Shown here: positions 3,288-26,241 of the stretch, one piece after another
Numbering within the stretch: the first letter of the stretch is position 1
How the letters are laid out: every line of letters begins with the position of its first letter
IMG/VR virus record: IMGVR_UViG_3300027976_000185
Span: 1-26,386 of that record
DNA: 26,386 nucleotides
DNA from: a virus
Reading direction: 5' to 3' (one strand)
Notes under the pieces: generated by a model
The model's database searches: none
What the model was told of the DNA's origin: nothing
Seen by the model: only the letters and a program-made list of their open reading frames with translations
Translations under genes and position numbers: made by a program

Positions 3288-3300
3288 TCAAGGAGACATG

Positions 3301-9198: not shown

Positions 9199-9205
9199 GA
9201 CAAGA

Positions 9206-9229: not shown

Positions 9230-9246
9230 ACTGCCATGTTGGCAGT
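9230..9246 (+). repeat. Dispersed 17-bp palindrome, copy C
   Basis: ACTGCCATGTTGGCAGT is a perfect palindrome with 7-bp arms and a TGT loop, identical to copy D. It abuts the GC-rich hairpin at 9206-9229 and lies ten bases before GGAG (9257-9260) of the next gene. Confidence 0.9.
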
Positions 9247-9267
9247 CAACGCAATTGGAGACCGAAA

Positions 9268-9614: not shown

Positions 9615-9636
9615 CGAAAGGCAATGGGGGAAACAT

Positions 9637-10221
9637 ATGCCGAATCCGAAGATGGCCGCAGGTCGTCCAGTAGATCATATCAGTGGTGAGAGTGTTGCGA
9701 GGTACTACCAATCGTCCCACCATTTTGATGCCACTGGTGAGTACGTGACGCCAACCGAGGCGTCGATGCACCCGGAACAGGGTGTGACGATGGTCGCGAT
9801 GCGGCGAGCGAAGGAAGCCGATGCGGACCGGCTGGAAAGCAAGCGTCACGCAGAGGAAGAAGCGGCGGCAATCGATGCGGCCAGGCTGGAGGGAGCGAAG
9901 TCAAAAGGACCGCGCTCAAGACTCCAAGACCAGCAAGACCAGAATGATGCACTGATGGGCGAGATGAGCCGGAGCATGGAGACACTGGAAACAGAAGATC
10001 TGCTGCATGCGTACCTTGCGACAGTGCCTCGTGCCAGTGTCGCGGCATTCGCGACGGGGGTTCTTGGGTTTGTTGTTCCAGCCGGAACAAAGCCGAAGGC
10101 AGTCATAGACGTTGTCACTCCTGCCATCGTGGCGGCGTGGCAGGCGATACGGGAAGAGATGGCAGAGGCTGCAGAGCACGTCGCTGTCATTGACGATGAA
10201 GATCTGACTCAAACGAGCTGA
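9637..10221 (+). CDS. Coiled-coil virion-region protein, unknown
   Basis: A 194-residue protein with GGGGG at 9626-9630 before the ATG. Residues about 48-105 are a charged helix or coiled coil (MRRAKEADADRLESKRHAEE and following), then a polar Gln/Asp stretch. Residues about 125-175 contain a more hydrophobic Ala/Val-rich part (SVAAFATGVLGFVVPAGTKP). The end is acidic. It lies just before the adaptor gene, so it may be a head-completion or ejected internal protein. I do not recognise a family. Confidence 0.65.
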   Translation: MPNPKMAAGRPVDHISGESVARYYQSSHHFDATGEYVTPTEASMHPEQGVTMVAMRRAKEADADRLESKRHAEEEAAAIDAARLEGAKSKGPRSRLQDQQDQNDALMGEMSRSMETLETEDLLHAYLATVPRASVAAFATGVLGFVVPAGTKPKAVIDVVTPAIVAAWQAIREEMAEAAEHVAVIDDEDLTQTS

Positions 10222-10253
10222 TCTAACGATGGACGCCACAAGAAGGGGATGCG

Positions 10254-10967
10254 GTGAACTTTCGCGAGCTGTGCAAGGACACAATCGGTGAGCTGGGCGT
10301 AGGCGGGGGGTCGCGCAGCTTCTCTGGCGTCGCATCCGCCCGAGGAGAGCACGGCATCATTGTCGGGCTGATCAACAAGGCCCACACAGATATCTGCAAT
10401 CGGTACATCGATTGGAAGTTCCTCTGGAAAGACTACAAAGAGCGCCTGTTGAGCGGCGCTCGCGTGGCATCTCCACCGTCGACCGTTGCCGGTTACACCC
10501 CCATCGTCAAGCACTGGAAGCGCGAGAGCTTCTTCCTCGATCTTGAAACCGCCAGTGCCAAGGCGCTGCAGTTCATCGAGTTCTCGCAGTGGCGCGCACT
10601 GAGCCGGTTCTCCGCGTTAGTCACAGAGGCCCCGAGCACGTTCAGCATCAACCCGGCAGGCGCGGTCGAGCTGAACTCGATCAACGATTCACTGCGCTGG
10701 CTGCATGCTGAGTACTACCAGCGGCCGCAGGCCATGGTGCTGGACACAGACCTTCCCTTGGTTCCTGTCGACTTCCACCGGCTGATCGTTGTGCGGGCGA
10801 AAATCTACTACGGCGAGCGGGAGGATGCCCCCGAGATCGTTTCCGGATCCAGTGGCGAGCACGATGACCTGATGATGGCGCTGGAGTCCAGCGAGCTGGA
10901 GAACTGGGCTCCCAACGGCATGGGCACGCCGGACCTTGAGCACATCACCCCGAGCTTCGACAGATGA
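10254..10967 (+). CDS. Head-tail adaptor (P22 gp4-like) protein
   Basis: A 237-residue protein starting with GTG at 10254 after AAGGGG (10243-10248). The N-terminal pattern, with MNFRELCKDTIGELGV, a glycine/serine-rich turn, then IIVGLINKAHTDICNRYIDW and KFLW, matches the helical core of podoviral adaptor proteins that dock under the portal ring. The C-terminal half (YYQRPQAMVLDTDLPLVPVD, then helices with acidic ends) also fits that family. It directly precedes and overlaps (ATGA) the large hub gene, the expected order of adaptor then tail hub. The call is from remembered family pattern and position. Confidence 0.75.
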   Translation: MNFRELCKDTIGELGVGGGSRSFSGVASARGEHGIIVGLINKAHTDICNRYIDWKFLWKDYKERLLSGARVASPPSTVAGYTPIVKHWKRESFFLDLETASAKALQFIEFSQWRALSRFSALVTEAPSTFSINPAGAVELNSINDSLRWLHAEYYQRPQAMVLDTDLPLVPVDFHRLIVVRAKIYYGEREDAPEIVSGSSGEHDDLMMALESSELENWAPNGMGTPDLEHITPSFDR

Positions 10968-13189
10968 GACGCCCAGCCACATTCGGCCGACTGGGTGAAA
11001 CGCTGTCACGTCGCGGTGCCGGGCGATCGGCGTCGCGTGTCTACGAGAAAGACTACTACGCCTTCGATGGCGGCCTGAACACCGAGGATGGTCCCCTGGC
11101 GATACCGCTGGGTGACATCATCGGCTCCAAGAATTACGAACCCAACAAGCGCGGCGGGTTTCGCCGGGTTGACGGGCACGAGCGATTCGATGGTCGGCCC
11201 GCGCCTGCTGAGCAGCATTACACGTTCATCCTGTTCGATGCCGGGGTTCCTGCGGACTACCCGATTGTGGGCGACACAATCAATGGCCAGACATCCGGAG
11301 CGACCGGAAGAGTGCTGGCCATTGGACAGGGATCGCCTTACACCGACGGATTCGATTCAGGCTTCGGCGCGGACGACAACATCGGCTATGTGGCGCTGAT
11401 CAATGTCACCGGGACGTTTCAGGACAACGAGAACCTGCGCGAGGTCACGACGGTGTTCGGCGTGGAATACGGCGCACCCATCGTCGATGACGCGGTAACC
11501 GATGCGCTGCACGAGATCCTTGTCGACCTGATGGAAGCGTACTTTCGGACGCTGGTCCTCGCGGTCCCGGGTTCCGGCCCTGTGCGTGGCGTATGGTTCT
11601 TCAAAGGCGTGACGTATGCCTGGCGCGACAACGCGGGCGCGACGGCGTGCGTGATGCACAAGTCCACCGGTTCGGGCTGGTCAGCAATTGTCCTGAACAA
11701 GAAAATTCGGTTCGACGCAGGTGTCGGCCAGATCTTCGAAGGCGACACGGTAACCGGCCTGACATCGGGAGCCACCGGAGTGGTCCTGCGAGTCGGTACT
11801 GTGAGCGGCACATGGGGCGGCACCATGGTCGGGTATCTGGTGTTCGTGTCTATTACCGGCACGTTCGTTGACAACGAGGGGCTGCAGGTTGGTGGCGTCA
11901 CCAAAGCAACTGCCAATGGCGCGGCCTTCGTGCAGTCGCTGACCGCTGGCGGGCGCTATGAGTTCCGCACGAACAATTACTTCGGGCACTCGGACAAGAT
12001 CCGGTTCTATGGCGTGAACGGCGAGGATGCGTGCTTCGAGTACGACCCCGTGGATGCCTGTTTCGCCCAGATCGACACCGGCATGACGGTGGACAAGCCC
12101 CGGCATATTGGCTCGTATTCCGACATTCTGATGCTGGCGTTCTCTGGCGGCTCGGTCCAGCTGGCCGGCCGCAATACGCCCATGGCGTGGACTGTCGTGC
12201 GTGGCGCAGGCGAGCTGGCGCTGGGCGAGGAAGTGGTCGGTTTTATCGAAGAGATCGGCGCGACTGACAACGTGGCAGTGTTCATTCTGGGGAGAAACAG
12301 GATCAGTCGTCTGTCAGGTACAACGCCTGCGACGTTCAAGCTGGTCGAGTTCGGCATTCGTGCCGGCTGCCGCGAGTGGTCCTCACAGCGGATTGCCAAC
12401 GGGATCTACCTGGATGACCAAGGGTTTACCACGCTGACCGCGACGGAAGCCCACGGGAATTTCCGCGAGTCGATCGTCACGGACAAGGCGGCCGGATTCA
12501 TCACGAAACTGCTGGGACGTTCCTCTGTGGTGGACTCGCATGTTTCCCGGGAGTTGTCCTTGTACCGATGTTCGTTCGCCAACGGCGACAACGTGGTGAT
12601 TGGCTACAAGGATGTGTACACGAAGGGCGGCGCGCCAACCCGCGAGTACCGGGTGATGGTGACCAACTACGGCAAGCCAGTCCTATGTTCATGCGAACAG
12701 GAAGGTCTGGACGGCAGGATCCGGACCTTCTTCGGCTCCGACGACGGGTTCGTGTACGAGATCCGATCTGACGTCCGCAGCTTCGATGGCGTCGAGGTCG
12801 AGAGCTTCGTGCGGATGCCGTACCACTTCTCGAAGTCGCCGCAGCGCCACAAGCGTTATCGCCGAGGCACCATCGACATCAAGACCGCGTCCCGGATGCT
12901 GACGATGAAGTGCGTGGTCGACTACATGTCGGGCAACCCGGATTACAACATGCAGCCCGTAATCGACATGGTCATCCCTGGGGGCGGGGGGTTCTGGGAT
13001 ATCAGCGACTGGGGCGAGTTCCAGTGGAGCAGCGAGGTCAATCCGACGGCGACGTTCGCGCTTAACGCATCGGGCACAAACATCAGTGTCGGCGCGTACT
13101 CCAAGACCAAGTACGAACTGACGCACACGCTGCTGGGGCTGACGCTGCATTACTCCCCGCGAAAACTCAACAGGAACAGCTTGGCATGA
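10964..13189 (+). CDS. Large tail hub/structural protein
   Basis: A 741-residue protein of the type found after the adaptor in many short-tailed phages. The opening FDGGLNTEDGPLAIPLGD followed by KNYEPNKRGGFRRVDGHERF and DGRP is a phrase I recognise from phage virion proteins that look like beta-propeller or P22 gp10-type hub proteins. Two copies of a beta domain are visible: GDTINGQTSGATGRVL with NVTGTFQDNENL (residues 102-160), and GDTVTGLTSGATGVVL with SITGTFVDNEGL (259-310). The later part has repeated beta-strand patterns consistent with a closed propeller. It starts within the adaptor stop (ATGA) and ends within the next start, so these three genes are coupled. Confidence 0.75.
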   Translation: MRRPATFGRLGETLSRRGAGRSASRVYEKDYYAFDGGLNTEDGPLAIPLGDIIGSKNYEPNKRGGFRRVDGHERFDGRPAPAEQHYTFILFDAGVPADYPIVGDTINGQTSGATGRVLAIGQGSPYTDGFDSGFGADDNIGYVALINVTGTFQDNENLREVTTVFGVEYGAPIVDDAVTDALHEILVDLMEAYFRTLVLAVPGSGPVRGVWFFKGVTYAWRDNAGATACVMHKSTGSGWSAIVLNKKIRFDAGVGQIFEGDTVTGLTSGATGVVLRVGTVSGTWGGTMVGYLVFVSITGTFVDNEGLQVGGVTKATANGAAFVQSLTAGGRYEFRTNNYFGHSDKIRFYGVNGEDACFEYDPVDACFAQIDTGMTVDKPRHIGSYSDILMLAFSGGSVQLAGRNTPMAWTVVRGAGELALGEEVVGFIEEIGATDNVAVFILGRNRISRLSGTTPATFKLVEFGIRAGCREWSSQRIANGIYLDDQGFTTLTATEAHGNFRESIVTDKAAGFITKLLGRSSVVDSHVSRELSLYRCSFANGDNVVIGYKDVYTKGGAPTREYRVMVTNYGKPVLCSCEQEGLDGRIRTFFGSDDGFVYEIRSDVRSFDGVEVESFVRMPYHFSKSPQRHKRYRRGTIDIKTASRMLTMKCVVDYMSGNPDYNMQPVIDMVIPGGGGFWDISDWGEFQWSSEVNPTATFALNASGTNISVGAYSKTKYELTHTLLGLTLHYSPRKLNRNSLA

Positions 13190-13926
13190 CGAATCCATAC
13201 TACGAATACGGTGGAGCGATCCCGCCCACAGGGACCGCCAGATCCGAGGATGTGATCAGGGAGCTGGAGGCTGCCGAGGTCGGCTTCGATCTTCTGAGCG
13301 TCGAGTTCGATCGGCGGGTCAAGATCCCGTCGGGCGCGGCGAACGAGATCATTGCGACCGTCGATCAACGCAAGAACAAGCCGATCGGATTCAACTCGTC
13401 TGGAGGGATTGCCCTGCTGCAGGCGTTCGGGACGTGGCGCGGCGACTGGACGGCGCTGGCGGTGTACGCGAACCAAGACATTGTCCGTGATCCGGTGTCT
13501 CCGAACAGCATTTTCATTGCCAACGAGAACCACACGGCAGCGGCGGCGTTCAACGCGGGTGAGAAAACCGACCACTGGACCACGGTCATCGATCTGACGG
13601 AGCTGCAGCGAGCTGAGTCGGTCTCGTTCAACTTCACGGTAAAGACGGCCAACTTCAACTGCGTGACCGGTGATGACTACGCGGTCGACTGTACCTCTGC
13701 CGTGGTGGCGACATTGCCTGGTTCTCCAGTGGCCAACGACCACTGCCGTTTCATGCACGTCGCCGGAACGGTGTCGAACTTCACGATTGCTCGAAACGGC
13801 AAGCTGATCATGGGACTTACCGAGGACATGACGTTCTCAGCAACCGGCGATGCCAACGCAACTAATTTTGCCTTCGCGCTGGTCTTCATCAATGACACCT
13901 ACGGATGGAGGATCTATCCCGTATGA
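13186..13926 (+). CDS. Tail fibre or tail-attachment protein
   Basis: A 246-residue protein whose N-terminus ([20 protein letters not shown] then [12 protein letters not shown]) is a head I recognise from phage tail proteins that attach fibres to the tail. Residues about 80-125 ([20 protein letters not shown], then [18 protein letters not shown]) read like a small tryptophan-containing carbohydrate-binding module of the ChiC/chitin-binding type. The C-terminal third is Thr/Asn-rich beta sheet ([20 protein letters not shown]). It overlaps both neighbours by ATGA and leads into the collagen-like genes, so it may anchor them to the tail. Confidence 0.7.
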
Positions 13927-14540
13927 GTGTTTATCACACATTCCGACTCAAGGGCTCGACGGGCCCGGCAGGTCCGACAGGCTCTGGCGGGCCCGATGGA
14001 CCTGCTGGTCCGCCTGGACCACCCGGGTCTGTAGGTCCGACGGGTCCGAATGGCCCGGGTGGTCCTTCAGCTGGCGGCCCTCCGGGTCCGACAGGTTCGC
14101 CCGGTCCTGCGGGCCCTGCTGGCGCAACAGGTCCTTCAGGCCCTACGGGCGCTGCTGGTCCTCCGGGTCCAACAGGCGGTGCTGGTCCTGCGGGTCCGAC
14201 GGGTCCAACGGGTCCAACGGGCCCTTCGGGCACGACAGGTCCAGCAGGCCCAACGGGGTCGCCCGGACCGTCCGGTCCTACTGGCCCTTCAGGCTCAACC
14301 GGACCCACAGGTTCGGCAGGTCCAACTGGACCAGCGGGTCCGGCAGGCCCTGCGGGTCCGACGGGTCCGGCAGGTTCTACGGGCCCAACCGGCCCAACCG
14401 GATCAACCGGGCCGAGCGGCCCTGCCGGTCCTTCTGGATCAGCAGGCCCTGCGGGTCCGAACGGTCCTCCGGGTCCAACTGGACCTGCCGGACCGACGGG
14501 CGGGGCCGGACCAGCCGGACCAACCGGACCGGCTGGATAA
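13923..14540 (+). CDS. Collagen-like fibre protein 1, almost pure Gly-X-Y
   Basis: A 205-residue protein: ten leader residues ([10 protein letters not shown]) then about 64 uninterrupted Gly-X-Y triplets apart from one two-residue break near GPSAGGPP. X is mostly proline; Y is mostly Thr, Ala or Ser, with a few Gly-Pro-Pro. Such sequences form collagen triple helices and occur as stalks of phage fibres. The start is ATG 13923, overlapping the previous stop; an upstream in-frame ATG at 13905 lies inside the previous gene. It is odd in lacking any C-terminal globular domain, which normally drives trimerisation; it ends GPTGPAG then TAA. The next collagen gene starts one base later. Confidence 0.85.
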
Positions 14541-14541
14541 G

Positions 14542-15525
14542 ATGCCGGACTTCGGTGGTTACAGGATCGGATTGAATGGCAGCCCGGGGCCGAATGGCCC
14601 GCTGGGCGGACCGGGTCCGTTCGGAGCTTTCGGCCCGAACGGACCGGCAGGGCCGACAGGCTCAGCCGGACCAACGGGAGCACCAGGCCCCGTTTCCCCC
14701 GGGCCTACGGGCCCCGTTGGTCCGGTTGGGACTTCAGGCATCGCTGGAGGAACGGGCATTACCGGAGCGAAGGGTCCAAACGGCCCTCCTGGCACAGGCC
14801 CTTCAGGTGCGGTCGGTCCGCCGGGTCCAACAGGTCCGTCTGGGCCAAGACCTCCTGGTCCTCCGGGTCCTGCGGGCCCTGCGGGCGCAACAGGCCCAAC
14901 CGGTTCTTCTCCGGCAGGTCCGGCGGGCATTGCGGGCCCTGCTGGCGGTCCGGGTCCGACAGGAGCATCTCCTGCAGGCGGCGTTGGTCCGACAGGTCCC
15001 ACCGGGTCCGTAGGCCCAACGGGGTCATCCCCTGCGGGCGGCGCTGGTCCGACAGGTCCGTCCGGATCTGCGGGTCCTGCGGGCGGCTCTCCCGTCGGTC
15101 CGACAGGCCCGACAGGCCCGGCAGGCCCGACGGGTCCGACGAGCAACCTGAACATTCAGGTTCAATTTAGCCTCACGGACCCCGGTCCGTCGATAACGCA
15201 TGGCGTCCGGTTCCTGCGCAGTGGCGTGATGCAATTGCAGCAGGGTGGCGGCAGCTGGACAGACGACTCGGACGAGTGGGTGATTACCGGTCGAAGCGCC
15301 ACCGTCGGCGATCTCTATGAGGTGAGGCTGACGCAGGTCAGCGGGAGCCCGACTAATGGCGGCGGGCTGACACTGGGGACGTGGTATCGAATTGATTCGA
15401 CGAGGGAATACACGTTTAGCTATCCAGCTTCGGCCAACGGAATCTTTAATATGCAGCTGCGCAGATATTCCGATGGCACGGCGCTGCGCAACAAAAACAT
15501 CGAGATGTACGTTGAGGCGCTGTAG
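14542..15525 (+). CDS. Collagen-like fibre protein 2 with C-terminal beta head
   Basis: A 327-residue protein: short leader ([12 protein letters not shown]), collagen-like Gly-X-Y stalk to about residue 200, then a beta-rich head (201-327, beginning [18 protein letters not shown], ending IEMYVEAL). The stalk is less regular than protein 1. From residue 121 a one-register break of the form [18 protein letters not shown] recurs at 121, 141, 161 and 181, exactly every 20 residues. The frame stays open upstream to 14050, but that part is a shifted reading of the previous collagen gene, so ATG 14542 is the start. No strong ribosome site precedes it; with only one base between stop and start it is probably translated by reinitiation. 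Confidence 0.85.
14902..15141 (+). repeat. Four 60-bp tandem units in the collagen stalk
   Basis: Four degenerate units of 60 bp (20 residues) start at 14902, 14962, 15022 and 15082. Each begins with a glycine and a Ser/Pro interruption ([20 protein letters not shown]) and continues with six Gly-X-Y-like triplets. They imply expansion by unequal recombination and create evenly spaced hinges in the triple helix. Confidence 0.75.
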
Positions 15526-15543: not shown

Positions 15544-16167
15544 ATGAGATGGCAGATCGCAACACCGCAGAAAAAGGAGTTCCCTCCTTTCGTCAAGTAC
15601 GAGGAGCTGTTCTCACCGCCTGAGTGCGTGGAGATCATACGAAGCGGACACGTCCTTGGACTGTCTGATGGCACCATCGGGAATGGCAAGGATTCCGTTC
15701 CCGTTGTCGATCAGGCGTATCGCAAGGTGCAGACCGCATTCATGCCGCCGATCGATATTGATCGCAAGATCGATCTTCGCTGGCTGTACAAACGGCTGGA
15801 TGAACGCGTGCAGTGGACCAACAGAGATTACTACGAGTTCGATCTGGTCGGCTTTGACGAAGGCATTGTGTTCCTGAAGTACGAAGCAGACGACGAGACG
15901 CCCGGTCACTACAAGTGGCATCAGGACTTCGGCGGCGGTCCGTCTTCGTTGCGGAAGCTGTCGATCGTGGTCCAGCTGTCGCCACCAGAGTCGTACGACG
16001 GGTGCGAGCTGTCTATATTCACGAATCAGGCGTTTATTCCCCAGGGCAGCACAAAGCAGGGGGACACGATCATCTTCCCGTCGTGGACACCCCACATGGT
16101 CAGCGACATCACGCGTGGTACGCGGTATGCACTGGCAGTGTGGGTAGCCGGACCGAGGTTCCGATAA
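15544..16167 (+). CDS. 2-oxoglutarate/Fe(II) dioxygenase, prolyl-hydroxylase type
   Basis: A 207-residue enzyme of the double-stranded beta-helix dioxygenase family (prolyl 4-hydroxylase/PKHD group, as in YbiX). The iron triad is clear: H126 and D128 in HYKWHQDFG, and H184 in PSWTPHMV. R194, ten residues after H184 in RGTRYALAVW, is the expected 2-oxoglutarate carboxylate ligand. The strands YDGCELSIF and GDTIIFPSWTPH match the core of the family. It would hydroxylate a side chain while converting 2-oxoglutarate to succinate. GGGGA precedes the ATG at 15544. It sits between collagen-like genes 2 and 3, so the collagen-like stalks are the obvious candidate substrates, though that is inference. 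A different protein substrate is possible. Confidence 0.88.
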   Translation: MRWQIATPQKKEFPPFVKYEELFSPPECVEIIRSGHVLGLSDGTIGNGKDSVPVVDQAYRKVQTAFMPPIDIDRKIDLRWLYKRLDERVQWTNRDYYEFDLVGFDEGIVFLKYEADDETPGHYKWHQDFGGGPSSLRKLSIVVQLSPPESYDGCELSIFTNQAFIPQGSTKQGDTIIFPSWTPHMVSDITRGTRYALAVWVAGPRFR

Positions 16168-16342: not shown

Positions 16343-16990
16343 ATGGTAGACACAGTACGAACGCTGGCCGACATCATTGCCCGCCTGCCGGACAATCAGG
16401 CCGGGAATATCACACCACAGGCGATGCGTGACTTCGCCGTTTCCGTCGAGGCTGGGTTCGTCCATATGGCCGCGATCCAGTTGTTGGACGACGAGGGCGA
16501 TGTCTTCGGCGCGGTCAGCGGACGGGTATTCAACGAGGCCATCGCGGCAGTCACCATTGTCGGGGTGCCGGGACCGCCGGGACCGCTGGGCCCCAACGGT
16601 CCGGCCGGTCCTCCAGGTTCGGACGGCGCGACGGGAGTCATCGGCAACCCTGGTACGCCGGGAGTCATCGGTCCTGCAGGCGCTTTGGGCCCGACCGGAC
16701 CTACTGGCAGTACAGGTTCTGCGGGTCCAACGGGATCCGGCGGCCCTCCGGGATCGACAGGCCCCAACGGCCTTAACGGAGCGGACCGTGGTCCGGTTAT
16801 TGTTGTGGGCTGGGGGCTGTCACCTGACTATGCAGCCGGGCTGGAGGGGAACATCTATCTGGAGTTGCCGTCCGGCACGCCTGTCGGCCCGTATGCCCCG
16901 GTTGGACTGGTGGTGATCTCCGATTTCGGAGAGGTCCCGTCTTATTCGGCGGGGCTTGAAGGGAACATCTATCTGGAGCTGCAGGCATGA
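16343..16990 (+). CDS. Collagen-like fibre protein 3 with N-terminal anchor domain
   Basis: A 215-residue protein with GGAG at 16333-16336 before the ATG. Residues 1-72 form the structural anchor shared with the small gene upstream ([27 protein letters not shown]), followed by about 25 Gly-X-Y triplets (residues 75-150) and a 65-residue C-terminus. That C-terminus has two near-copies of the phrase [11 protein letters not shown] (about 165-175 and 203-213), suggesting a small duplicated beta unit. It overlaps the next gene by ATGA. Because anchor, stalk and tip are all present, it looks like a complete short fibre. Confidence 0.85.
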
Positions 16991-17307: not shown

Positions 17308-17598
17308 ATGAGTGCTGAAGCCGCAATCAACGCCGCCATGGCGGCACTGGGCGTAATGCTGACTTCGTTCCTCGCGCTGCTGCAGACAGACAGCGAGATA
17401 ACCGACCGTGCCGTCGCCATCGTCCTGATCGGGTCGGCGATCAACTTCCTGCAAAACTACAAGGCCGTCTCCATCCGGCAGTTCACTTCGACGCAGATCC
17501 TGAACCAGCCATCTGACTATGTGCGGATCTCCGATCTCAAGAAGGACGACAAGCAAGTTACTGCCATGTTGGCAGTGATCGACGAGGAGCGGATATGA
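17308..17598 (+). CDS. Probable holin (two membrane spans)
   Basis: A 96-residue protein with CAGGAG at 17294-17299 before the ATG. Two hydrophobic segments are visible (AALGVMLTSFLALL at about 12-25 and AVAIVLIGSAINFL at about 36-49), separated by a short polar turn, then a hydrophilic tail. Size, two spans and position just before the endolysin (ATGA overlap) fit a holin, which would release the endolysin through the inner membrane. No specific holin family is recognised. Its 3' end carries a perfect copy of the dispersed palindrome (17560-17576), encoding VTAMLAV, seven bases before the endolysin ribosome binding site. Confidence 0.7.
   Translation: MSAEAAINAAMAALGVMLTSFLALLQTDSEITDRAVAIVLIGSAINFLQNYKAVSIRQFTSTQILNQPSDYVRISDLKKDDKQVTAMLAVIDEERI
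17560..17576 (+). repeat. Dispersed 17-bp palindrome, copy D
   Basis: ACTGCCATGTTGGCAGT is identical to copy C. It lies within the probable holin gene and seven bases before GAGGAG (17584-17589) of the endolysin gene. With its ten-base 5' flank it matches copy B at 25 of 27 positions. Confidence 0.9.
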
Positions 17599-17942
17599 GC
17601 GACCTGAACGACAAGCGAGTCGAGTTCATGCGGTGCGTCGCCCTGCTGGTGCTGTGGGCGAACGAAAACAACTTACCCGTCATCGGACGGGAGTTGGAGC
17701 GGACGGCTTCGCAGGCGGCCTTGTACGTCAAAAGCGGTGCCGGGATTGCGAACAGCCTGCACATGAAGATGCTGGCGATCGACTTGCATCGCGTCAAGGA
17801 CGGGAAGATCACGCTGGATGGCAGCGACTACAAGGCTCTTGCCGATCACTGGATCACGCTCCATCCTCTGGCGAGAGCGGGGTACTTCTTCAAACGAATG
17901 GACGCGTACCACTTCTCCTTCGAGCACGAGGGGGTCAAGTGA
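17595..17942 (+). CDS. Endolysin, M15-type peptidase (L-Ala-D-Glu or D-Ala-D-Ala type)
   Basis: A 115-residue zinc peptidase of the VanY/T5-endolysin-like M15 family that would cut peptidoglycan peptides at lysis. The zinc motif SLHMKMLAIDL gives H56 and D63 with the usual H-x6-D spacing; the third ligand is probably H106 in DAYHFSFEH, equivalent to the PHFE motif. A conserved Trp/Gly region (DHWITLHPLARAGYFF) precedes it. Length is typical for the minimal catalytic domain, and there is no cell-wall-binding domain or signal peptide, so export would depend on the holin. ATG overlaps the holin stop by four bases and has GAGGAG at 17584-17589. Confidence 0.85.
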   Translation: MSDLNDKRVEFMRCVALLVLWANENNLPVIGRELERTASQAALYVKSGAGIANSLHMKMLAIDLHRVKDGKITLDGSDYKALADHWITLHPLARAGYFFKRMDAYHFSFEHEGVK

Positions 17943-18547
17943 TCTATCTGGTCCACGGCATCCGAACAGACGGCGAAGACAACATCGACAGGATTGGCTT
18001 GACGATGACGCGCTTCGGCCACGTCGTGGTGGACACTCCGCTGGATGTACGACGCGCATGGAACGTGCGCCGGACCATGCAGCATGATGCGAACAGGCTG
18101 GCTGCCTTCATGGCAGGCGACCCGTGGCGTGAGCGAGTCATCATCGCTCACTCCCATGGTTGCAACATCGCCCTCGAAGCAGCCAAGCAGACAGCCGTCG
18201 CGTCTTTGTGGCTGTTCAACCCGGCGACATCATCGAAGTACGACCTTTCATATGTGCGCTGCCACACAGAACACATTTTCTGCATCTACAGCCCTACTGA
18301 TCTGGCTGTCCGACTGGGGAATATGATCCCTTTCAGGCATCCGTTCGGTGCGGCAGGGTACAAAGGATTCGCAGATCTTCCGGACAGGAACAATCTGGAG
18401 TCATTCGGCCATCACAGCATGGCCTTCAAAGAACCACTGGCCTCTAACTGGGGAAGGAATATCCATGAGTCGATGCTTAGGCTTGATAGTGAGCGCAGTA
18501 CTTTTGGCGGGCTGCGCAAGCGCGATCCTGCCGACCGAAGCCCCTGA
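17939..18547 (+). CDS. Alpha/beta hydrolase (esterase/lipase-like)
   Basis: A 202-residue protein starting with GTG at 17939, overlapping the endolysin stop (GTGA). It begins at once with the first core strand and oxyanion motif IYLVHGI (2-8). The nucleophile elbow AHSHG puts the serine at S72; D121 (IYSPTD) and H159 (SFGHHSM) complete a plausible triad. The substrate is unknown: candidates are lipids, an O-acetylated or acylated polysaccharide, or an envelope ester. Placement right after the endolysin recalls LysB-type lysis esterases of mycobacteriophages, but the Gram-negative features here argue for another substrate. The last 27 codons overlap the lipoprotein gene in another frame and look less constrained. 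Confidence 0.75.
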   Translation: MIYLVHGIRTDGEDNIDRIGLTMTRFGHVVVDTPLDVRRAWNVRRTMQHDANRLAAFMAGDPWRERVIIAHSHGCNIALEAAKQTAVASLWLFNPATSSKYDLSYVRCHTEHIFCIYSPTDLAVRLGNMIPFRHPFGAAGYKGFADLPDRNNLESFGHHSMAFKEPLASNWGRNIHESMLRLDSERSTFGGLRKRDPADRSP

Positions 18548-18713
18548 AAATGGCTCGGTTGTCAGGTTGTCTCACATACAGGGATCGTTTGGAATGCCAC
18601 CCGCCAGCGGCATTGCCGATACCTGCCAAGTGGTCATACTAGGGAGCCCGGACGGATGCGTTGTGATTGAACGGGAAGGCTGCAAAGTGAATACATGCGA
18701 GGTCGCAAAATGA
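18465..18713 (+). CDS. Small outer-membrane lipoprotein
   Basis: An 82-residue protein with a classical lipoprotein signal: MSRCLGLIVSAVLLAGC, lipobox LAGC with lipidated Cys at 17. GGGGAAGGA lies just before the ATG (18465), which is inside the hydrolase gene. The mature part has four further cysteines (TCQVV, DGCVV, EGCKV, NTCEV), probably forming disulphides in the periplasm. It is not proline-rich as outer spanins usually are. A spanin is possible from its place in the lysis region, but the cysteine-containing small fold also recalls phage Cor/Llp-type lipoproteins that block receptors against superinfection. Overlaps the next ATG by four bases. Confidence 0.75.
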   Translation: MSRCLGLIVSAVLLAGCASAILPTEAPENGSVVRLSHIQGSFGMPPASGIADTCQVVILGSPDGCVVIEREGCKVNTCEVAK

Positions 18714-19168
18714 AGGCACTGGTGATTCTGCTTATCTTGACGGGCTTCCAGCCGGTTTACGCCGACGACCTCGATGAGGCCATCGACTGCGGCATCCGAG
18801 CCTACGCTGAGTCGCAACCGCCTGCCGGATCCTGGGCGCAGCAACTGATCGCCGAACTGAAGGAGGACGTGCCCGCCAACACTCGGATTCAGTTGGGCGG
18901 CGTGAAGCTGTTGCTCACGTCATACCAGAGACAGGACGGCAACACCGCACGCGCTGAGCGCATGGGCACGATGAGTCACGCGATCCAAACCTGCCTGTCC
19001 CGCATCCCGACCAGACAGGTTTCTGCACACGACATTCTCGACAAAGCCGACGCCATCCTGACTGCCATGTATCCGCCTGCCCCTGAGATTGACCCGGCCA
19101 GCCTGATCGAGTGGGAAGCCGAGAAAGAAAAACGATTTGAGGCCGCACAGGAGCGAGCGAAAGAATGA
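18710..19168 (+). CDS. Exported helical protein, unknown
   Basis: A 152-residue protein starting at ATG 18710 (ATGA overlap) with a Sec-type signal peptide: MKALVILLILTGFQPVYA, predicted cut before DD. The mature part is charged, mostly helical, with two cysteines (IDCGI and QTCLS), and ends in a Glu/Lys/Arg-rich helix (WEAEKEKRFEAAQERAKE). It should act in the periplasm or outside the cell. I recognise no family. It lies between two other exported proteins, overlapping both, which suggests one co-translated envelope module. Confidence 0.7.
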   Translation: MKALVILLILTGFQPVYADDLDEAIDCGIRAYAESQPPAGSWAQQLIAELKEDVPANTRIQLGGVKLLLTSYQRQDGNTARAERMGTMSHAIQTCLSRIPTRQVSAHDILDKADAILTAMYPPAPEIDPASLIEWEAEKEKRFEAAQERAKE

Positions 19169-22100
19169 AGAAACTACTCGCACTGCTCCTGCTCATCTCA
19201 TCCGGCTATGCCAATGCACTGATCTGCCCCGACGGCGTATCACGTGCTGCGACTGTCCTCCTATGTCCTGCGCACCTCACACTGCCCAGCGTTGGACTGA
19301 TTACGACGACCAGCGCACAGATCATCGGCCAAGGCGATACCACTTCACGGGGCGCATTGCGGGGCATATTCATCAGCCTGAGCGCCTACCCTCCCGGCTG
19401 TACTGGCGCGAACTACCCACACGCCAATATGTCAAGCGCGGACCCTGCAACCGTGCAGGCCGCTGTTATCGCCCGAGCTGGGTGTACCCGACCTGACCTG
19501 ATCAAGCTGGGCTCCGGTGCATCGGCCTATACGACCGAGACACTGGTTGATACGGGCTATCACGCCAAGTCGGTCACAGGATTGGCTCCGGGAACTACCT
19601 ACTACGCGCATTCAATGGCGTTCGGCGGCGGGTGCGATGCGTTCCCCAATTTCACCCTGAACTGCCGTCGCCCCTCGGCTACCTCGCTGGTCAGCACCGT
19701 CGCATTCGTCACAGCCACAGATGTCGGTGGTGGTGGTGGTGGTACAGGTGGCACTACGCCGGTTGAACTGGTGGGTGAAAAGTTCGTCAACGATGGTGGT
19801 GCGTCTGCTCGGTTTATCAAAAACGGCGGCAACAACCTTCTGGACGGGCTGACTGATGCAAACGCATGGTCGACCCTGAGCAAAGTTGGTTGCGGCCTGC
19901 CTGCTGGCACCAACATTGGTATTCTCAACACCTCCACGTTTTCTAATGCTGCTGCACAGTTAGACCTTTGCTTTGACTCTACAGCAGGCGACTGGGCCAT
20001 CGTCGGTTCGTACAAACTCAACGCATCATCTGTCCCGGTGTTCACCGTCGACGCCATTCGTGGGGAGACTGAAACCGATCAGAAGGCGGCGATGGTGGGC
20101 AACATTACGCAAGACTGTATCGATGCACGGAACTGCCAGTACACATTGGCCACTTTCCAGGCTGGCGGAATGAGCAGTCAGTACGATCCTGCAATGAGCA
20201 TCACCGGCAACTACATCGAGGTTCGCAATCTCGATTCATCGATGTGGCCCGGTTACAGCTATCTGATTACAGGCACCGGCAATACATCGGCAGCAGACAC
20301 CGGTCCGGGTTCAACTCATCACATCATCATCGATGGCGTAGACACGGACAATAACGGAGGTGCTCCGTATGCCATCATCGATGGCGTCAAGGATGTCGTT
20401 GTCCGCAACAGTCGTCACAAGAACTGGGGCATGTGCTGGCAGTTGAAGGGGCTTGGAAACTCTTCGGAAAACTCAGACTATGTCTGCGATGGCAGTGCGG
20501 TCCCGTCAATCATGGGAACCGTCCGCTCGTATAACGCTCGTGTGCTGGTCGAAAACAATGACTCCTACGGTGGCATTGGCGAAGGCTACGATTGCGGCAG
20601 CACCTCCTCCCACATGATCCTACGTGGCAACCGTCACTACGGCTCACAGTCCGTGGGGGCATACGGCGACGGCTGTTCCAACTACGTGGTGGAAAACAAC
20701 ATCTTCATAGGTGGTCAGGACTACGGTGTGCAGGGTGCCGGGACTACCCTGCCTGGCAGCGGACTGTCCGGAGCAATGGCTGTCGACATCGAATCATGGC
20801 AGGGGGCCAACGCGAACAGCACTAATAATTATGTTGGTCGAAACAACTTACAGATCCGACCGGGATATTGCTTCAGCATGGCCATTAGCCAAGTAGCCGG
20901 CTCTAACGGCAGAACGGTTGGTATGCGTCTGCACGGCAACACCTGCATTAATGCGACCACCAGCGAATTCACGCAGTGGACACCAATCTACTCAGATGAT
21001 ATCCAGGTGCTGGATATCAGGAGCAATCTGATCTGGGACCAGGACTACGATTCCTGCAACATTACGGTCGCCACCAACGTGAGCAACAACCACTCGCACG
21101 CCACTCGTGTAGACCCGCAGTGTACTGGCCCCGACGCATCTACTGGCGACCCGATGCTAACCACAGCCTATGCGTCATGGGACAGTTACAAAGGCCCGTC
21201 CAGTTGGCCCGCATTCACGGATGCTCGACCTTTGTCAGGCTCGCCGCTCATAGACACCGGGTACTCGGCTACCGCTGCTGTGCTAGATTGGGCCAGTTTC
21301 GGGTTTGCTGCTACGGAAATGGCTGATTATAAATCAGGTGCCATAACCGCAGAGCACTGGGTCAAGGAGCGGTACTATGACGCGCTTAACCAACCTGTTG
21401 GGACCACGCCGCCCAAAGGCGCCGTTTGTGCTGCTACCGGATGCGACCCTGTAACGACTGGAGCGGCACGTGTACCCGACCCGGTTGCGGTCACCATTTC
21501 GCCGAATGGCCGATACTTCAGAAAGAATGGCACGACCTTCAATTGGGTCGGTTGCACGGCTTGGCTCTTGACCGACCTGACCACAGCGGACATGGATACG
21601 TTTTTCGACGACCGTGGGACACGCGGATGCAACGTCGTCAATGGTCCCATCATGATCAACCTGCTGGACTCGATCACGGCAGTCAACGGTCCTATCTCAA
21701 GCACTAGCCCATACACGATGCGCACGCAGTTCTTCATCGACAAGGTGGACCCCTTCGTCCAGAAAGCCACAGCTAAAGGGATGACGATCTTTTTCCCACT
21801 GTGCTGGGGACCGAACTGCAAGCGGGACATGATGGAGTCGGCAGTCAACGCACGGACCTACGCGAATTTCGTGGTCAGTCGATATGCGTCTTACGCCAAC
21901 ATCATCTGGGTGATTGCCGGCGAATACACGAAAATGGCTGACAACGCGCCATCTTACGTCACGCAGAGTGACGTGATGGACGCCAACGAACTGGCCATAC
22001 TTGACGCGCTGATTGCAGGCACTATGGCTAACAAGCACGTCGACAGCCTTGTGGTCCTGCATCCGGATGGCTGGAAGTCGACTACTGATACTGACCGGCA

Positions 22101-22746
22101 CCCAGCACGCAGCCTGCACAACGAATTCTGGAACAGCTTCCATGTGCTTCAGTCTGCCCGCAATAATAATGAAAACATCATCGACACGGTGTACGACACG
22201 GCGCTGTCGCCAACTAAGCCTAGTTTGCAGGCCGAGATTGGCTACGAAGAGGCTGGTGTCACTGATCCGTGGCACGTGCGACTTGGCGCGTGGTCCTCAC
22301 GCCTGAGTGGCTCCGCTGGATTTACCTACGGTCATAGTATTATCTGGCAGTTCGACACTGGATGGGCCTCTCATCTGGGAGCTGCCGGTGCAGATGACAT
22401 CTTCACAAACTTCAAAGCCTTCTGGGACGAACACCAAAGCGAGACGCTGATCGAGTCGCGCTCGTGGCTTACAGGCGACAGGGGTAGCAGCGCATACCTT
22501 ACGGACACGTATGAGGTAGCGATGCGCTCTGCGGATTCCACCAAACTGATTGTGTACGCTCCGCAGGGGGCGAACATCAACGTCATCACCAACAACATCA
22601 GCGGAACCGTTAGATCACGCTGGTACGATCCTCGACTTGGAACCTACACGCTGATCAGCGACAACGAAACCAAGTCGGCTGACGTGACGTTTGACCCCTC
22701 CGGCTCGCCGGGTGTTGATAACGATTGGGTGCTAGTCCTTGATTAA
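19165..22746 (+). CDS. Sec-exported beta-helix/apiosidase-like glycosidase
   Basis: A 1193-residue modular protein that starts at the ATGA overlap with the gene before. Layout: signal peptide (1-18, MKKLLALLLLISSGYANA); a fibronectin III-like domain to about 185 (VTGLAPGTTYYAHSM); a Gly6 linker (188-193); a parallel beta-helix-like region (about 200-640) with Asn/Gly turns, HHIIIDGVDTDNNGG and NYVVENNIFIGGQDYG; and a DUF4038/GH140-like TIM barrel (about 775-1105) beginning ISPNGRYFRKNGTTFNWVG. E920 in WVIAGEY and E1024 in LQAEIGYEE are candidate catalytic residues. The last 80 residues match the small beta domain that follows such barrels (Pfam calls it a putative collagen-binding domain). 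It probably degrades a surface polysaccharide. A signal peptide is unusual for a virion fibre, so it may be secreted. Confidence 0.75.
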   Translation: MKKLLALLLLISSGYANALICPDGVSRAATVLLCPAHLTLPSVGLITTTSAQIIGQGDTTSRGALRGIFISLSAYPPGCTGANYPHANMSSADPATVQAAVIARAGCTRPDLIKLGSGASAYTTETLVDTGYHAKSVTGLAPGTTYYAHSMAFGGGCDAFPNFTLNCRRPSATSLVSTVAFVTATDVGGGGGGTGGTTPVELVGEKFVNDGGASARFIKNGGNNLLDGLTDANAWSTLSKVGCGLPAGTNIGILNTSTFSNAAAQLDLCFDSTAGDWAIVGSYKLNASSVPVFTVDAIRGETETDQKAAMVGNITQDCIDARNCQYTLATFQAGGMSSQYDPAMSITGNYIEVRNLDSSMWPGYSYLITGTGNTSAADTGPGSTHHIIIDGVDTDNNGGAPYAIIDGVKDVVVRNSRHKNWGMCWQLKGLGNSSENSDYVCDGSAVPSIMGTVRSYNARVLVENNDSYGGIGEGYDCGSTSSHMILRGNRHYGSQSVGAYGDGCSNYVVENNIFIGGQDYGVQGAGTTLPGSGLSGAMAVDIESWQGANANSTNNYVGRNNLQIRPGYCFSMAISQVAGSNGRTVGMRLHGNTCINATTSEFTQWTPIYSDDIQVLDIRSNLIWDQDYDSCNITVATNVSNNHSHATRVDPQCTGPDASTGDPMLTTAYASWDSYKGPSSWPAFTDARPLSGSPLIDTGYSATAAVLDWASFGFAATEMADYKSGAITAEHWVKERYYDALNQPVGTTPPKGAVCAATGCDPVTTGAARVPDPVAVTISPNGRYFRKNGTTFNWVGCTAWLLTDLTTADMDTFFDDRGTRGCNVVNGPIMINLLDSITAVNGPISSTSPYTMRTQFFIDKVDPFVQKATAKGMTIFFPLCWGPNCKRDMMESAVNARTYANFVVSRYASYANIIWVIAGEYTKMADNAPSYVTQSDVMDANELAILDALIAGTMANKHVDSLVVLHPDGWKSTTDTDRHPARSLHNEFWNSFHVLQSARNNNENIIDTVYDTALSPTKPSLQAEIGYEEAGVTDPWHVRLGAWSSRLSGSAGFTYGHSIIWQFDTGWASHLGAAGADDIFTNFKAFWDEHQSETLIESRSWLTGDRGSSAYLTDTYEVAMRSADSTKLIVYAPQGANINVITNNISGTVRSRWYDPRLGTYTLISDNETKSADVTFDPSGSPGVDNDWVLVLD

Positions 22747-23191
22747 CTTACTCGTAGCCGTCCGCCAAACCGAAGTCACCGCCGCACGTACCCGCAGGGC
22801 TGCTATTGATCGGGTACGAAGCGATCCGGGAACTGATGCCAAGCGCGTGGGCGATATCTTTGATAAGCAGCACGACGACGTGGGCAACATGTGGTTGAGT
22901 CCAGCAAAGGGCGGATCACCGCGCACGCTACTGTCGATCTATGTCGACGACGTGGATGACAGCAAGTCGACCATCGTCGATCTGGGCGCGAAGGCGGAAA
23001 TCATGGGTGGGTGGGACGTGGACAGCGGCGAGATCGTCTACCCAGTCCATAGCAGTCTCTACACTTTTCAACGCGATCAATACGAGACGGACGATAAAGG
23101 AGTCAGCACATTGATTAAATCAGCCAAGAGCAATGCGGACCTTGACCAGATTGTTTTGCTTTCTGGACAAGTTGAAAGGAAGTATAGCTAA
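22739..23191 (+). CDS. Unknown protein with TTG start
   Basis: A 150-residue protein that begins with TTG at 22739, overlapping the preceding gene by eight bases; there is no in-frame ATG until far inside, so TTG is the best choice, although no clear ribosome site is present. The N-terminal 50 residues are helical and charged; the middle (SPRTLLSIYVDDVDDSKSTI, then GWDVDSGEIVYPVHSSLYTF) is beta-rich. It ends one base into the next ATG (TAATG). I recognise no family; position suggests a small tail-fibre assembly factor or virion component. Confidence 0.6.
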   Translation: MINLLVAVRQTEVTAARTRRAAIDRVRSDPGTDAKRVGDIFDKQHDDVGNMWLSPAKGGSPRTLLSIYVDDVDDSKSTIVDLGAKAEIMGGWDVDSGEIVYPVHSSLYTFQRDQYETDDKGVSTLIKSAKSNADLDQIVLLSGQVERKYS

Positions 23192-26100
23192 TGCCCCACT
23201 TATCACTCGTATCCACACGACTCGGTACTGACCCGCCGGCAAGCGATGTTGTACCCGACGTCAACCTGACCGCGCAGGGAGTGCTGGACTGGCTCCTCAT
23301 GGGCGAGGGCGCTGTTGGCGATCAGAACTTCAAGAACGGCGCGGTCTTCATTACGTCCATAGTGGAAATTGGATCCCCTGCGCCAACCCGCTTTGCCGGA
23401 TCAACGGACAAGCAAGCCTCGCTCACGTCTTACACCGACGGTGTCAGTCCCGCGTCTGGCGGCAACCGGGCTTGGATCGGCACAACCGTAAACGCCGCCG
23501 GGTGGCGCATCACGATTGCCCTCAGTGGCCAGAGCGTAGAATTCACGCTGGGCACGGGCGGGTACGACGGCACACACCGCGTGGACTGTAGCTTAAGCGA
23601 CGCGTCTGCCCCTCCTGTGTCGTCAGACCAGGTGTCCGGCGCGACGGCAGTGGGCTGGTGGAAAAACGTGATTCTTGCAGATGCCACCAGTGATGCAGCC
23701 AACCTTATCGTTGACATCACCAAGATTTCGGGAGCAGGCAACGCCTGCCAGTTCCAGCATGGTTATCTAACCTACGGCACCAAGGTCATACGGCGCGTCA
23801 CCCCCACTTCGCCCTCCCCCGGCGACGCAGTGTCTGCGGTACTGGGAGGCTACGCGGCAGCACCGCTGACGGCTAACAGCCTGTTCGCCGGCATTGGTAT
23901 CACGCTTAACGGCGGCGCTACGAACGTCCTGTGCGGGTTCACGATGCCCGCTCGGTCGGCCTTCCGGTTCGGCGGTACGCACGCGGCCAAGAGGTTCTAT
24001 TTCAACCATGACCTGGTCATTGCCAACGCGAGCGAGACTGCCACGAAGGCAGATGTGCAAGTCGCGCCGGCCCAGCCCGGAGGCTTCGGCGCGAGGAACG
24101 CAGCAGCCCAGTCGGCCACGCCGATGGGCGACATCATCGATCTGCTGACGTGGAATGCAGGCGCGATCGCGCTGGCTACGGCTGATGAGGTGTGGGGGCA
24201 CATCACTACAGGGTCGGGCGTGATCAACGCGCTGGAAGTGAACTACGAGGCATACTCGGACCCGATGGTCATCGAGTGGACGTTCTTCGATATCAGCGCA
24301 GGATCGTGGTCAGGGCTGGTCACTACAACGTACTCCGAGGCGATGACGCTGGCAGCCGGCCACCTCGCGCCGACGCCGGGACAGACGGTTCGGCTGACCT
24401 TGACGGGCGGCCCGTTCGCGCTTCCGATCACCCAAGCCTACATCGTTTTCGGAGTGAACCTCATACCTATCGCATGGACGGTATTTGATGCGAGCAACAC
24501 CGACGTGGTGGTGCCGGATTACGCCGAGCTGGGTTTCGACAAGGTCGCCGAGTACTTGCCGTTTTATGCAAACTTCGCTTTCAGACTTGTCGCCGGATCG
24601 GAGGTTACCGAGACGCCCAATACCAACCAGATCGTCGCACCCGGCTCGGCTAAAAGCGGTGGCGCTGGTAGCTACTACGCCAACTTTCGCGGTCTCAGGC
24701 TGCCCTCAGAACTCGCCCCTTACTTCGTTCGTGCTTCGACCGCGCTGACCAAAGGCGCAGACGGCGTCTACTCGACAGTGCTTTCTGGGGTGCCTGCGTT
24801 CGATGGTGCGGACGGCCTGATCCTTGAGACGGCGAGTACCAGTCCGATTATCCAATCGGGTTTTGCGGGTGCTGTTTCGGGGACTCCGGGCACTGCTCCG
24901 ACGAGCTGGGCTTTCGGTTTCTCGGATGGGACGTTGGCTGTTGAATCAAGCGCATTTTCTGGCACAAACAAACTCCGATTTACGACTTCGGCAGCGCGTC
25001 ATTATCTGACACAGACCACGAGTTCCTTAGTCGCCGGAACGACATATTGCGTTTCTGTTATGTGTGAAGTCTTGAGCGGCACCCCGACTTTTAACACCTC
25101 GATGTTTCTTCTCGCCGGGTCGACTTCTTTTACGACTACCGAGCTACGTATCGACGGCGTGGTGGCCAGCGGTGCGACAACAGTATCTGCGGGCTTGCGC
25201 CTCCTCGAACACGTTTTCGTTCCGACGGGTAACGGGACGCTTCAGGTCAGATTGGGGGCAGGGTGCTCAACTACTGTCACTGTCGACCAGACCTTCGACA
25301 TGCCCCAGCTCGAAGCCCAAGTCTGTCGCACCTCCTACATACCCACAACGACAGCTGCCGTCACGCGGGCGCTGTCGCAATTGGGGGCCATGCCGCTCAC
25401 GGTGCTGGGTCTGGCCGCGCAGGACAATGAGTGGAGTGCTCACGTAGCTGCCAAGATGTTGTATTCGAGCGCGGTGTCTTGGACGGCAGGAAATTTGATA
25501 TTTGCAATGGCGGAATCGGCGTCTAACATCGAGCGGCTGAACATCAATTATGCCGGTGTCGGGTCAATCCGACTTAGCACAATAATCAACGGCAACAGCA
25601 TCAGTACTCAGGTTAATGGGCTCACATGGGCCGCAGGGGACGTCCTTAATGTCCGTTTCAGCAAGGGCGCAACGAACGGATTGATTCTGCGGGTCGACGC
25701 AGCAGCCGCAGCAACGAACACGACAGCGAACGCGAAAGCACCGCATGGAACTGCGTTGGCTTTGGTGATGCTCAACTCACACGTGGGGGTCGGATCTCAC
25801 TGGGCAGGCGTCTATCGCGGCTTCAAGGTCTGGGACATAGCGCTGTCAGACGCAGAGCTGAGCGCGCTTTCGGTCGGTGCATTCGGCGTGCCTGTTGCTG
25901 GTGCAATTGCATCAGTCAGCGCCCTAACAGGCGCGCTATCAATTGGTAAAACTTTGGCGGGTGCAATCGCATCAGTCAGCGTTCTAACAGGCGCGGACAA
26001 ACTGCAAAGACAGATGCTGGGCGACATGCAGTCTGTGTCCGAAATAAGCGGGGATGCTTTTCTCGTTCAGCAACTCGAAGGTGAGATCGCATCACAATCC

Positions 26101-26241
26101 GAGCTGCAGGGAGGCGCATTTATCGACATGCATATGGCGGGAATCCTGCCCGCAGTTTCCCAGCTAACAGGCCAGATCACGGGCGCTGCCAATGTGCCTC
26201 CTGGGTACTTGAAGGCGTCCATACGTGTTTACCCTGTCTAA
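23191..26241 (+). CDS. Large lectin-like tail/receptor-binding protein
   Basis: A 1016-residue protein, Thr/Ser/Gly/Ala-rich and all-beta. Residues about 500-720 contain a phage carbohydrate-binding phrase: FGFSDGTLAVESSAF, then PQLEAQVCRTSYIPTTTAAV and TRA, a stretch I recognise from many phage tail and head-fibre proteins that carry CBM-like jelly rolls. It is followed by a concanavalin/LamG-like domain (about 740-895) that ends with the typical FKVWDIALSDAELSAL. The C-terminus holds five tandem 20-residue repeats (902-1001, LAGAIASVSALTG type). It probably binds a cell-surface glycan as fibre or spike. The ATG shares one base with the previous stop. Confidence 0.75.
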   Translation: MPHLSLVSTRLGTDPPASDVVPDVNLTAQGVLDWLLMGEGAVGDQNFKNGAVFITSIVEIGSPAPTRFAGSTDKQASLTSYTDGVSPASGGNRAWIGTTVNAAGWRITIALSGQSVEFTLGTGGYDGTHRVDCSLSDASAPPVSSDQVSGATAVGWWKNVILADATSDAANLIVDITKISGAGNACQFQHGYLTYGTKVIRRVTPTSPSPGDAVSAVLGGYAAAPLTANSLFAGIGITLNGGATNVLCGFTMPARSAFRFGGTHAAKRFYFNHDLVIANASETATKADVQVAPAQPGGFGARNAAAQSATPMGDIIDLLTWNAGAIALATADEVWGHITTGSGVINALEVNYEAYSDPMVIEWTFFDISAGSWSGLVTTTYSEAMTLAAGHLAPTPGQTVRLTLTGGPFALPITQAYIVFGVNLIPIAWTVFDASNTDVVVPDYAELGFDKVAEYLPFYANFAFRLVAGSEVTETPNTNQIVAPGSAKSGGAGSYYANFRGLRLPSELAPYFVRASTALTKGADGVYSTVLSGVPAFDGADGLILETASTSPIIQSGFAGAVSGTPGTAPTSWAFGFSDGTLAVESSAFSGTNKLRFTTSAARHYLTQTTSSLVAGTTYCVSVMCEVLSGTPTFNTSMFLLAGSTSFTTTELRIDGVVASGATTVSAGLRLLEHVFVPTGNGTLQVRLGAGCSTTVTVDQTFDMPQLEAQVCRTSYIPTTTAAVTRALSQLGAMPLTVLGLAAQDNEWSAHVAAKMLYSSAVSWTAGNLIFAMAESASNIERLNINYAGVGSIRLSTIINGNSISTQVNGLTWAAGDVLNVRFSKGATNGLILRVDAAAAATNTTANAKAPHGTALALVMLNSHVGVGSHWAGVYRGFKVWDIALSDAELSALSVGAFGVPVAGAIASVSALTGALSIGKTLAGAIASVSVLTGADKLQRQMLGDMQSVSEISGDAFLVQQLEGEIASQSELQGGAFIDMHMAGILPAVSQLTGQITGAANVPPGYLKASIRVYPV
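25894..26193 (+). repeat. Five 60-bp tandem repeats at the end of the tail protein gene
   Basis: Five units of 60 bp (20 residues) with consensus AGxIxSVSxLTGxx. Units 1 and 2 are nearly identical at DNA level (around 25897-25932 and 25957-25992), the others diverged. The pattern is familiar from phage tail proteins and is likely to form a repetitive stalk or shaft. Confidence 0.8.

Follow-up and report, generated by a model that had tools for sequence, protein, structure and literature searches.

Gene content of the lysis-to-tail region

The window, a 26,386-base IMG/VR fragment, carries a podovirus-type structural module with large terminase, portal, scaffold, major capsid and tail genes. 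Its named kin, identified via the portal, are Escherichia phage PTXU04, Vibrio phage 1.232.O and their relatives. The related-phage set comprised 76 records, 32 found via the terminase and 44 via the capsid protein. The same population is also represented by a 12.5-kb contig (IMGVR_UViG_3300007523_000264), which aligned without gaps to positions 2813-15351 at 99.8% identity and stops short of the cassette described here. The functions of all genes discussed are inferred from sequence.

Three collagen-like (Gly-x-y repeat) proteins (13905-14540, 14542-15525 and 16343-16990) are encoded around a 2OG-Fe(II) oxygenase gene (15544-16167), which is also present in the related phage G043. This enzyme may hydroxylate collagen-like fibres of the phage itself. 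A frameshift within the collagen-like region was considered and rejected, as there are two separate genes.

The lysis module, on the forward strand like all genes that follow, begins with a holin-like small membrane protein (17308-17598), which has a hydrophobic N-terminal segment, precedes the endolysin and matched no family. The 115-residue M15-type endolysin (17595-17942; SLHMKMLAIDL ... YHFSFEH) matched phrog_1768 endolysin (E = 7.5e-5), and has a homologue in the related phage G047 (SAHKRRLAIDL ... HYSLEY; E = 5e-9). Directly 3' of the endolysin gene, and absent from the list in the first-pass annotation, is an alpha/beta hydrolase of 202 residues (17939-18547; GTG start, no signal peptide) with a GxSxG-like nucleophile elbow, AHSHG. 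Its profile matches were below cut-off (Pfam Abhydrolase_6, weak, E = 0.019; NCBIfam BchO-like, E = 6.7e-6), and no homologue was found in phage records or IMG/VR viral contigs. It could assist lysis, in the manner of LysB or by de-esterification.

From 17595 the gene order is endolysin, hydrolase, lipoprotein, 152-residue protein, 1193-residue glycosidase, 150-residue protein and tail/spike protein, with the holin-like gene upstream. Every gene up to 26241 overlaps the next, with zero intergenic gaps. The 150-residue protein (22739-23191; TTG start, no signal peptide, no family match) shares 8 bp of its gene with the 3' end of the glycosidase gene. The 1016-residue tail/spike protein (23191-26241), also without a signal peptide, matched NCBIfam NF048003 GTA_spike_fiber (E = 1e-13) and phrog_5939 tail. 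The earlier placement of three exported proteins between lysis genes and a tail gene was thus upheld. A role for these products in a lysogen, also raised there, was not: neither integrase nor repressor was seen within the fragment, and with no sign of lysogeny a lysogen-surface function is unsupported.

Three consecutive genes carry predicted export signals

All three open reading frames proved to be real. The first (18465-18713) encodes an 82-residue lipoprotein with a perfect lipobox, LLAG/C at Cys17, and Ala at +2; its signal sequence is MSRCLGLIVSAVLLAG, cleaved before CASA. The second (18710-19168) encodes a 152-residue protein with the signal peptide MKALVILLILTGFQPVYA, cleaved before DD (VYA/DD), and two Cys. 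The third (19165-22746) encodes the multidomain glycosidase, whose signal peptide MKKLLALLLLISSGYANA would be cleaved before LI (YANA/L). This N-terminus shows the features of a Sec type I signal: n-region charge, a hydrophobic core and an AxA-type site. A Shine-Dalgarno-like stretch precedes each of the three starts, that of the lipoprotein being GGAAGGA. The ATGA coupling described in the first-pass annotation is present at two junctions (18710 and 19165). It does not extend to the lipoprotein start, which lies 83 bp inside the hydrolase gene in another frame.

Export signals were called with a single fixed home-made rule, a heuristic complemented by inspection by eye and distinct from SignalP, and all three proteins were positive. 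The same rule was positive for 24/1515 genes (1.6%) in related phages and for 7/1515 shuffled N-termini, the 1515 called genes including some spurious ORFs. From this background, three positives in a row among about 24 genes have an expectation of about 1e-4 per window, so the consecutive signals are far beyond chance.

Domain architecture and catalytic site of the 1193-residue protein

A Cys-rich FN3-like domain with a Gly-rich linker was recognized by eye at about residues 19-192 (19219-19740); a Pfam search over this region returned nothing significant. It is followed by a putative right-handed beta-helix region of about residues 200-740, with periodic strands in a low-confidence model; its core, at 20317-20733, matched PF13229 Beta_helix. 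The match had E = 3.6e-5 in a single-genome search and falls under Pfam's cut-off. The AlphaFold model is confident at residues 776-1193 only (pLDDT mostly 80-97) and low over most of residues 15-775, so the beta-helix call leans on PF13229.

The C-terminal part, residues 776-1193 (21490-22746), comprises a GH140/apiosidase-like (beta/alpha)8 catalytic domain and a beta-sandwich. PF13204 Apiosidase matched with E = 4e-43 (148.7 bits against a curated cut-off of 26.5) and PF12904 with E = 8e-13. Sequence matches in the PDB were 8t9w and 3kzs/5msy, and the modelled catalytic domain aligned to the GH140 structure 8t9w in Foldseek with TM 0.80 and E = 1.6e-24. PF13204 was found in 0/76 related-phage records, so the glycosidase gene is not a trait of the clade. 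The substrate that defines GH140 is apiose in the rhamnogalacturonan II of plants, not a bacterial capsule.

The catalytic pair of GH140, as assigned for BT1012, is an Asp acid/base and a Glu nucleophile. The nucleophile Glu, E1024 in the window protein, was present in 85/85 aligned members. The acid/base column held Asp in 82/85 and Glu in the remaining 3/85, namely the window protein (E920), the viral contig L196 and a Poribacteria MAG. Both catalytic carboxylates of the family appear to be kept, with the acid/base residue changed from Asp to Glu. The Poribacteria sequence (L237, JAJRTO010000076.1) is the only bacterial GH140 among the aligned loci with an acid/base Glu (CGEY), and it groups with the two exported phage enzymes in the tree described below.

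The protein contains 24 Cys; the expectation, set by the other large proteins of the same phage, is 8.1 (P = 4e-6). Of the 24, 20 fall in residues 18-775, ahead of the catalytic domain (P = 4e-7). Disulfide-rich proteins as a rule fold outside the cytoplasm, and the Cys excess is therefore evidence for export that is independent of the signal call.

Other viral GH140 proteins

A pattern search of IMG/VR and GTDB contigs with the whole 1193-residue protein found nothing; it took catalytic-domain alignments to bring up relatives. IMG/VR yielded two further viral GH140 genes. L196 is a siphovirus-type contig, as judged from its translated gene content, and is unrelated to the window phage. It encodes a 1223-residue GH140 protein with a signal peptide (2066-5737), adjoining tail-tip genes. 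The GH140 domain begins a few residues past the cleavage site, too close for a virion anchor to fit at the N-terminus. The second contig, L317, has terminase and tail-like genes and encodes a 559-residue GH140 protein (2331-4010) with no signal peptide and a structural-looking N-terminus, a probable virion-borne apiosidase-type depolymerase. So phages have used GH140 in both exported-looking and apparently virion-borne form, and the enzyme type alone does not decide location.

Among 50,697 phage records, GH140 was found only in MT835628.1 and MT835684.1, filed as Bacteriophage sp. Both were rejected as phage GH140 since their gene content is bacterial-looking; it includes a SusC/D-type polysaccharide locus and two-component and transport genes.

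In a tree of the three viral domains and 82 others, all three viral domains sit on very long branches, the end branch of the window domain being 3.6 against a median of 0.37. The window and L196 domains join (99/68), a grouping that long-branch attraction may explain. Export-like N-termini were common among the bacterial GH140 relatives.

Exported-looking proteins in related phages

Among the longer relatives, two of those closest in capsid protein, G036 (66%) and G039 (64%), each encode one large exported-looking protein of 2.4% Cys between terminase and portal. That of G036 (L197:786-3287) has 833 residues with He_PIG and Beta_helix matches, the latter over Pfam's cut-off; that of G039 (L201:7385-9613) has 742 residues. 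Homology with the 1193-residue protein was considered and rejected: no convincing sequence relation was found, and the proteins are alike in kind. No large exported protein was seen between terminase and portal in G002, G005 or G008, and some other relatives encode tail-fibre-type proteins in this interval. In PTXU04 it is occupied by a tail-fibre gene, so the G036 and G039 proteins can be read either as exported replacements of a fibre or as signal-bearing fibres.

Smaller exported-looking proteins were also observed. Vibrio phage 1.232.O encodes two consecutive small signal-peptide proteins downstream of its tail genes. At the end of the lysis region of G036 (L197:18109-18657) is a 182-residue exported-looking protein with an outer-membrane-barrel-like end (..ITLGVRF); its identity as a PagL-like deacylase, proposed by eye, had no Pfam or PDB support and was dropped. 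A 203-residue protein of G005 (L108:5954-6565), in which a twin-arginine signal (PF10518) and Peptidase_M15_3 both match weakly, is possibly a Tat-exported endolysin.

The lipoprotein and the 152-residue protein

No family or phage-record homologue of the lipoprotein rose above noise. A match to TrbK entry exclusion (E = 0.043), confined to the signal region, was dismissed as noise. Beyond Cys17, the protein has four Cys in its mature part and one in its signal. Its LAGC sequence, after a hydrophobic stretch, fits the bacterial lipobox consensus [LVI][ASTVI][GAS]C (PMC6139136). The mature 152-residue protein was predicted to be all-helical, in a low-confidence single-sequence model too weak for a fold search, and no homologue of it was found in IMG/VR, phage records or plasmids.

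The two small proteins may act as envelope partners of lysis, most simply as a divergent spanin-type pair, or as surface modifiers. As a spanin, the lipoprotein would be the outer-membrane component, with the 152-residue protein or the membrane protein encoded at 16987 as its inner-membrane partner, and would break the outer membrane at lysis; we regard this as plausible, though somewhat short of probable. No other lipobox ORF was found in the 9 kb that follow the tailB gene, and the lipoprotein is encoded 3' of holin and endolysin. Its periplasmic Cys are usual in two-component spanins (PMC6139136), and gene overlap is typical of such pairs. The relatives G039 and G003 carry classical o-spanin-like ORFs in the lysis region too, with a lipobox and the motifs P..L...C.v.plP and CN.R. 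These Rz1-type motifs are, however, absent from the window lipoprotein, which matches no family. Its gene also comes first, the reverse of Rz/Rz1, and the 152-residue protein appears to be cleaved rather than anchored. The spanin reading of the small proteins is compatible with an exported glycosidase.

The first-pass annotation had instead proposed that the lipoprotein masks a receptor against superinfection, in the manner of T5 Llp or T1 Cor. The small size, high Cys content and Ala at +2 of the lipoprotein, the last suggesting outer-membrane sorting, would suit such a role, and T5 Llp is itself a small phage lipoprotein whose gene adjoins that of the receptor-binding protein (PMC9586334). 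In the window, by contrast, several genes separate the lipoprotein from the nearest spike-type gene, and its place in a late run, after the lysis genes, is at odds with the early expression of Llp. No credible Llp/Cor-type sequence relation was detected, although such proteins diverge fast. We consider superinfection exclusion unlikely. Because Rz1-type o-spanins occur in the lysis region of two relatives, a divergent spanin appears at least as likely an identity for the lipoprotein, and in our view a somewhat likelier one.

Where the 1193-residue enzyme acts

The position of the glycosidase gene in a single run behind holin and endolysin would be accounted for most simply by late expression, Sec export, storage and release at lysis. 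The infected cell, probably a Gram-negative one, would make the protein, and Sec would move it into the envelope, where it would fold with disulfide bonds. There it would be stored until lysis by holin and endolysin released it together with virions. The signal peptide would then serve folding and storage, true secretion being done by lysis. Outside the cell, the beta-helix region would probably bind polysaccharide, while the GH140-like domain, a predicted retaining glycosidase (E920, E1024), could cleave a branched sugar of the host capsule or matrix. Progeny might thereby avoid being trapped by mother-cell debris or biofilm. The signals, overlaps, domains, catalytic residues, Cys excess and analogues in other phages were all established computationally. 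The export itself, its timing, the substrate and the benefit are what we infer from them, and a late-expressed, Sec-exported, periplasm-loaded polysaccharide-degrading enzyme, freed with progeny at lysis, is the account we favour, as slightly more likely than not.

The exported-effector proposal of the first-pass annotation was sustained for the glycosidase, by its Sec signal, Cys excess and GH140-like domain, by the large exported-looking proteins of two of the closest relatives and by L196. Its argument that virion proteins lack signal peptides proved less decisive. This is a general rule and not proof, and the viral GH140 of L317 is signal-less with a structural-looking N-terminus.

The main rival is a virion tailspike whose signal-like N-terminus is accidental. 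In this case the N-terminus would not be a working signal, or the start codon would be a minor one, and the beta-helix and GH140 regions would cut capsule at adsorption. Such a combination of beta-helix and glycosidase is the usual make-up of podoviral depolymerases (PMC6966330), and a tail gene (23191) follows downstream in the same overlapping run. The comparative data can also be read this way. The terminase-portal interval holds tail-fibre-type proteins in PTXU04 and others and an exported beta-helix protein in G036, and the signal-less GH140 gene of L317 is followed by tail-like genes. A tailspike, however, would have no export signal and an N-terminal virion anchor, while the window protein carries a textbook Sec signal with an AxA cleavage site and matches no PHROGs family. 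Its Cys load is unlike that of the other large proteins of the phage, which already encodes another spike-type protein (23191-26241). The L196 protein, its catalytic domain lying directly behind the signal, likewise argues against an anchor. Taken together, these data make a tailspike a real but minor prospect.

An auxiliary metabolic gene, feeding the infected cell sugars from plant or algal polysaccharide, is improbable. In its favour, the enzymes of the GH140 family are secreted and act on plant cell walls, in Bacteroidota among other groups, and many bacterial relatives have export-like N-termini. Against it, the gene is located in the lysis/tail region and not with early genes, and its strong divergence from all bacterial relatives argues against a recent copy of a host gene.

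Implications

Phage depolymerases are mostly regarded as parts of the virion, and enzyme found free in plaque haloes is ascribed to spillover of unassembled tailspikes. The favoured account of the glycosidase can be extended to a tentative proposal, which we hold to be possible rather than probable: some tailed phages may load Sec-exported, disulfide-rich beta-helix enzymes into the periplasm late in infection, and lysis would discharge them with the progeny. If true, the tailspike would not be the only means by which tailed phages deploy matrix-degrading enzymes. The window phage and two close relatives would exemplify this second route, as would the unrelated siphovirus-type phage, the exported protein differing from one to the next. 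A signal peptide and a disulfide-rich build would mean that phage resources go into an enzyme made specifically for export, and the annotation of capsule-degrading phages would change to consider export signals beside lysis or tail genes. It also becomes a simple, testable question whether the enzyme resides in virions or in the infected cell's envelope.

Comparison with known systems

Exported phage proteins of the envelope have precedents. Lambda Bor is a phage-encoded exported envelope protein among tail or lysis genes. The same holds for lambda Lom (PMC12309495), T5 Llp and T1 Cor (PMC9586334). In contrast to the window glycosidase, these four are small surface non-enzymes; no sequence relation was found, and Lom is expressed in lysogens. 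Two-component spanins (Rz/Rz1, T4 pseT.3/pseT.2; PMC6139136) resemble the small proteins of the window in having a small lipoprotein with periplasmic Cys, encoded behind the endolysin by overlapping genes. The window pair differs in lacking the Rz1-type motif and in having the lipoprotein gene first.

Soluble matrix enzymes are known from the Bacillus phages phiNIT1, SP10 and SPG24, namely the gamma-PGA hydrolase PghP and GH32 levan enzymes (PMC4497714, PMC4595243). Like the 1193-residue protein, they are phage-encoded and predicted to cut a host extracellular polymer, but their hosts are Gram-positive and their folds differ, and a signal peptide is absent from all three phage GH32 enzymes (PMC4595243). 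WceF of Pantoea stewartii (PMC7949094) is tailspike-like and modifies a biofilm glycan, but is a bacterial gene with no GH140 domain. Podoviral tailspike depolymerases (PMC6966330) likewise join a beta-helix to a polysaccharide-cleaving domain beside tail genes; the window protein is distinguished from them by its Sec signal, its many Cys and the lack of a recognisable virion-anchor domain.

The GH140 apiosidases, BT1012 of Bacteroides thetaiotaomicron (PDB 3kzs/5msy) and the mangrove metagenome enzyme 8t9w, share with the window protein the fold, the beta-sandwich and both carboxylates. The window protein has an acid/base Glu rather than Asp (GEY vs GGD), is phage-encoded and carries the additional Cys-rich FN3-like and beta-helix regions. 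Polysaccharide depolymerases and soluble matrix enzymes encoded by phages are already known, as are phage proteins exported to the envelope such as Lom, Llp and Cor. What is new is that a beta-helix/GH140 enzyme with predicted Sec export is encoded in a run of lysis and tail genes, and that two relatives as well as an unrelated phage have analogues of it.
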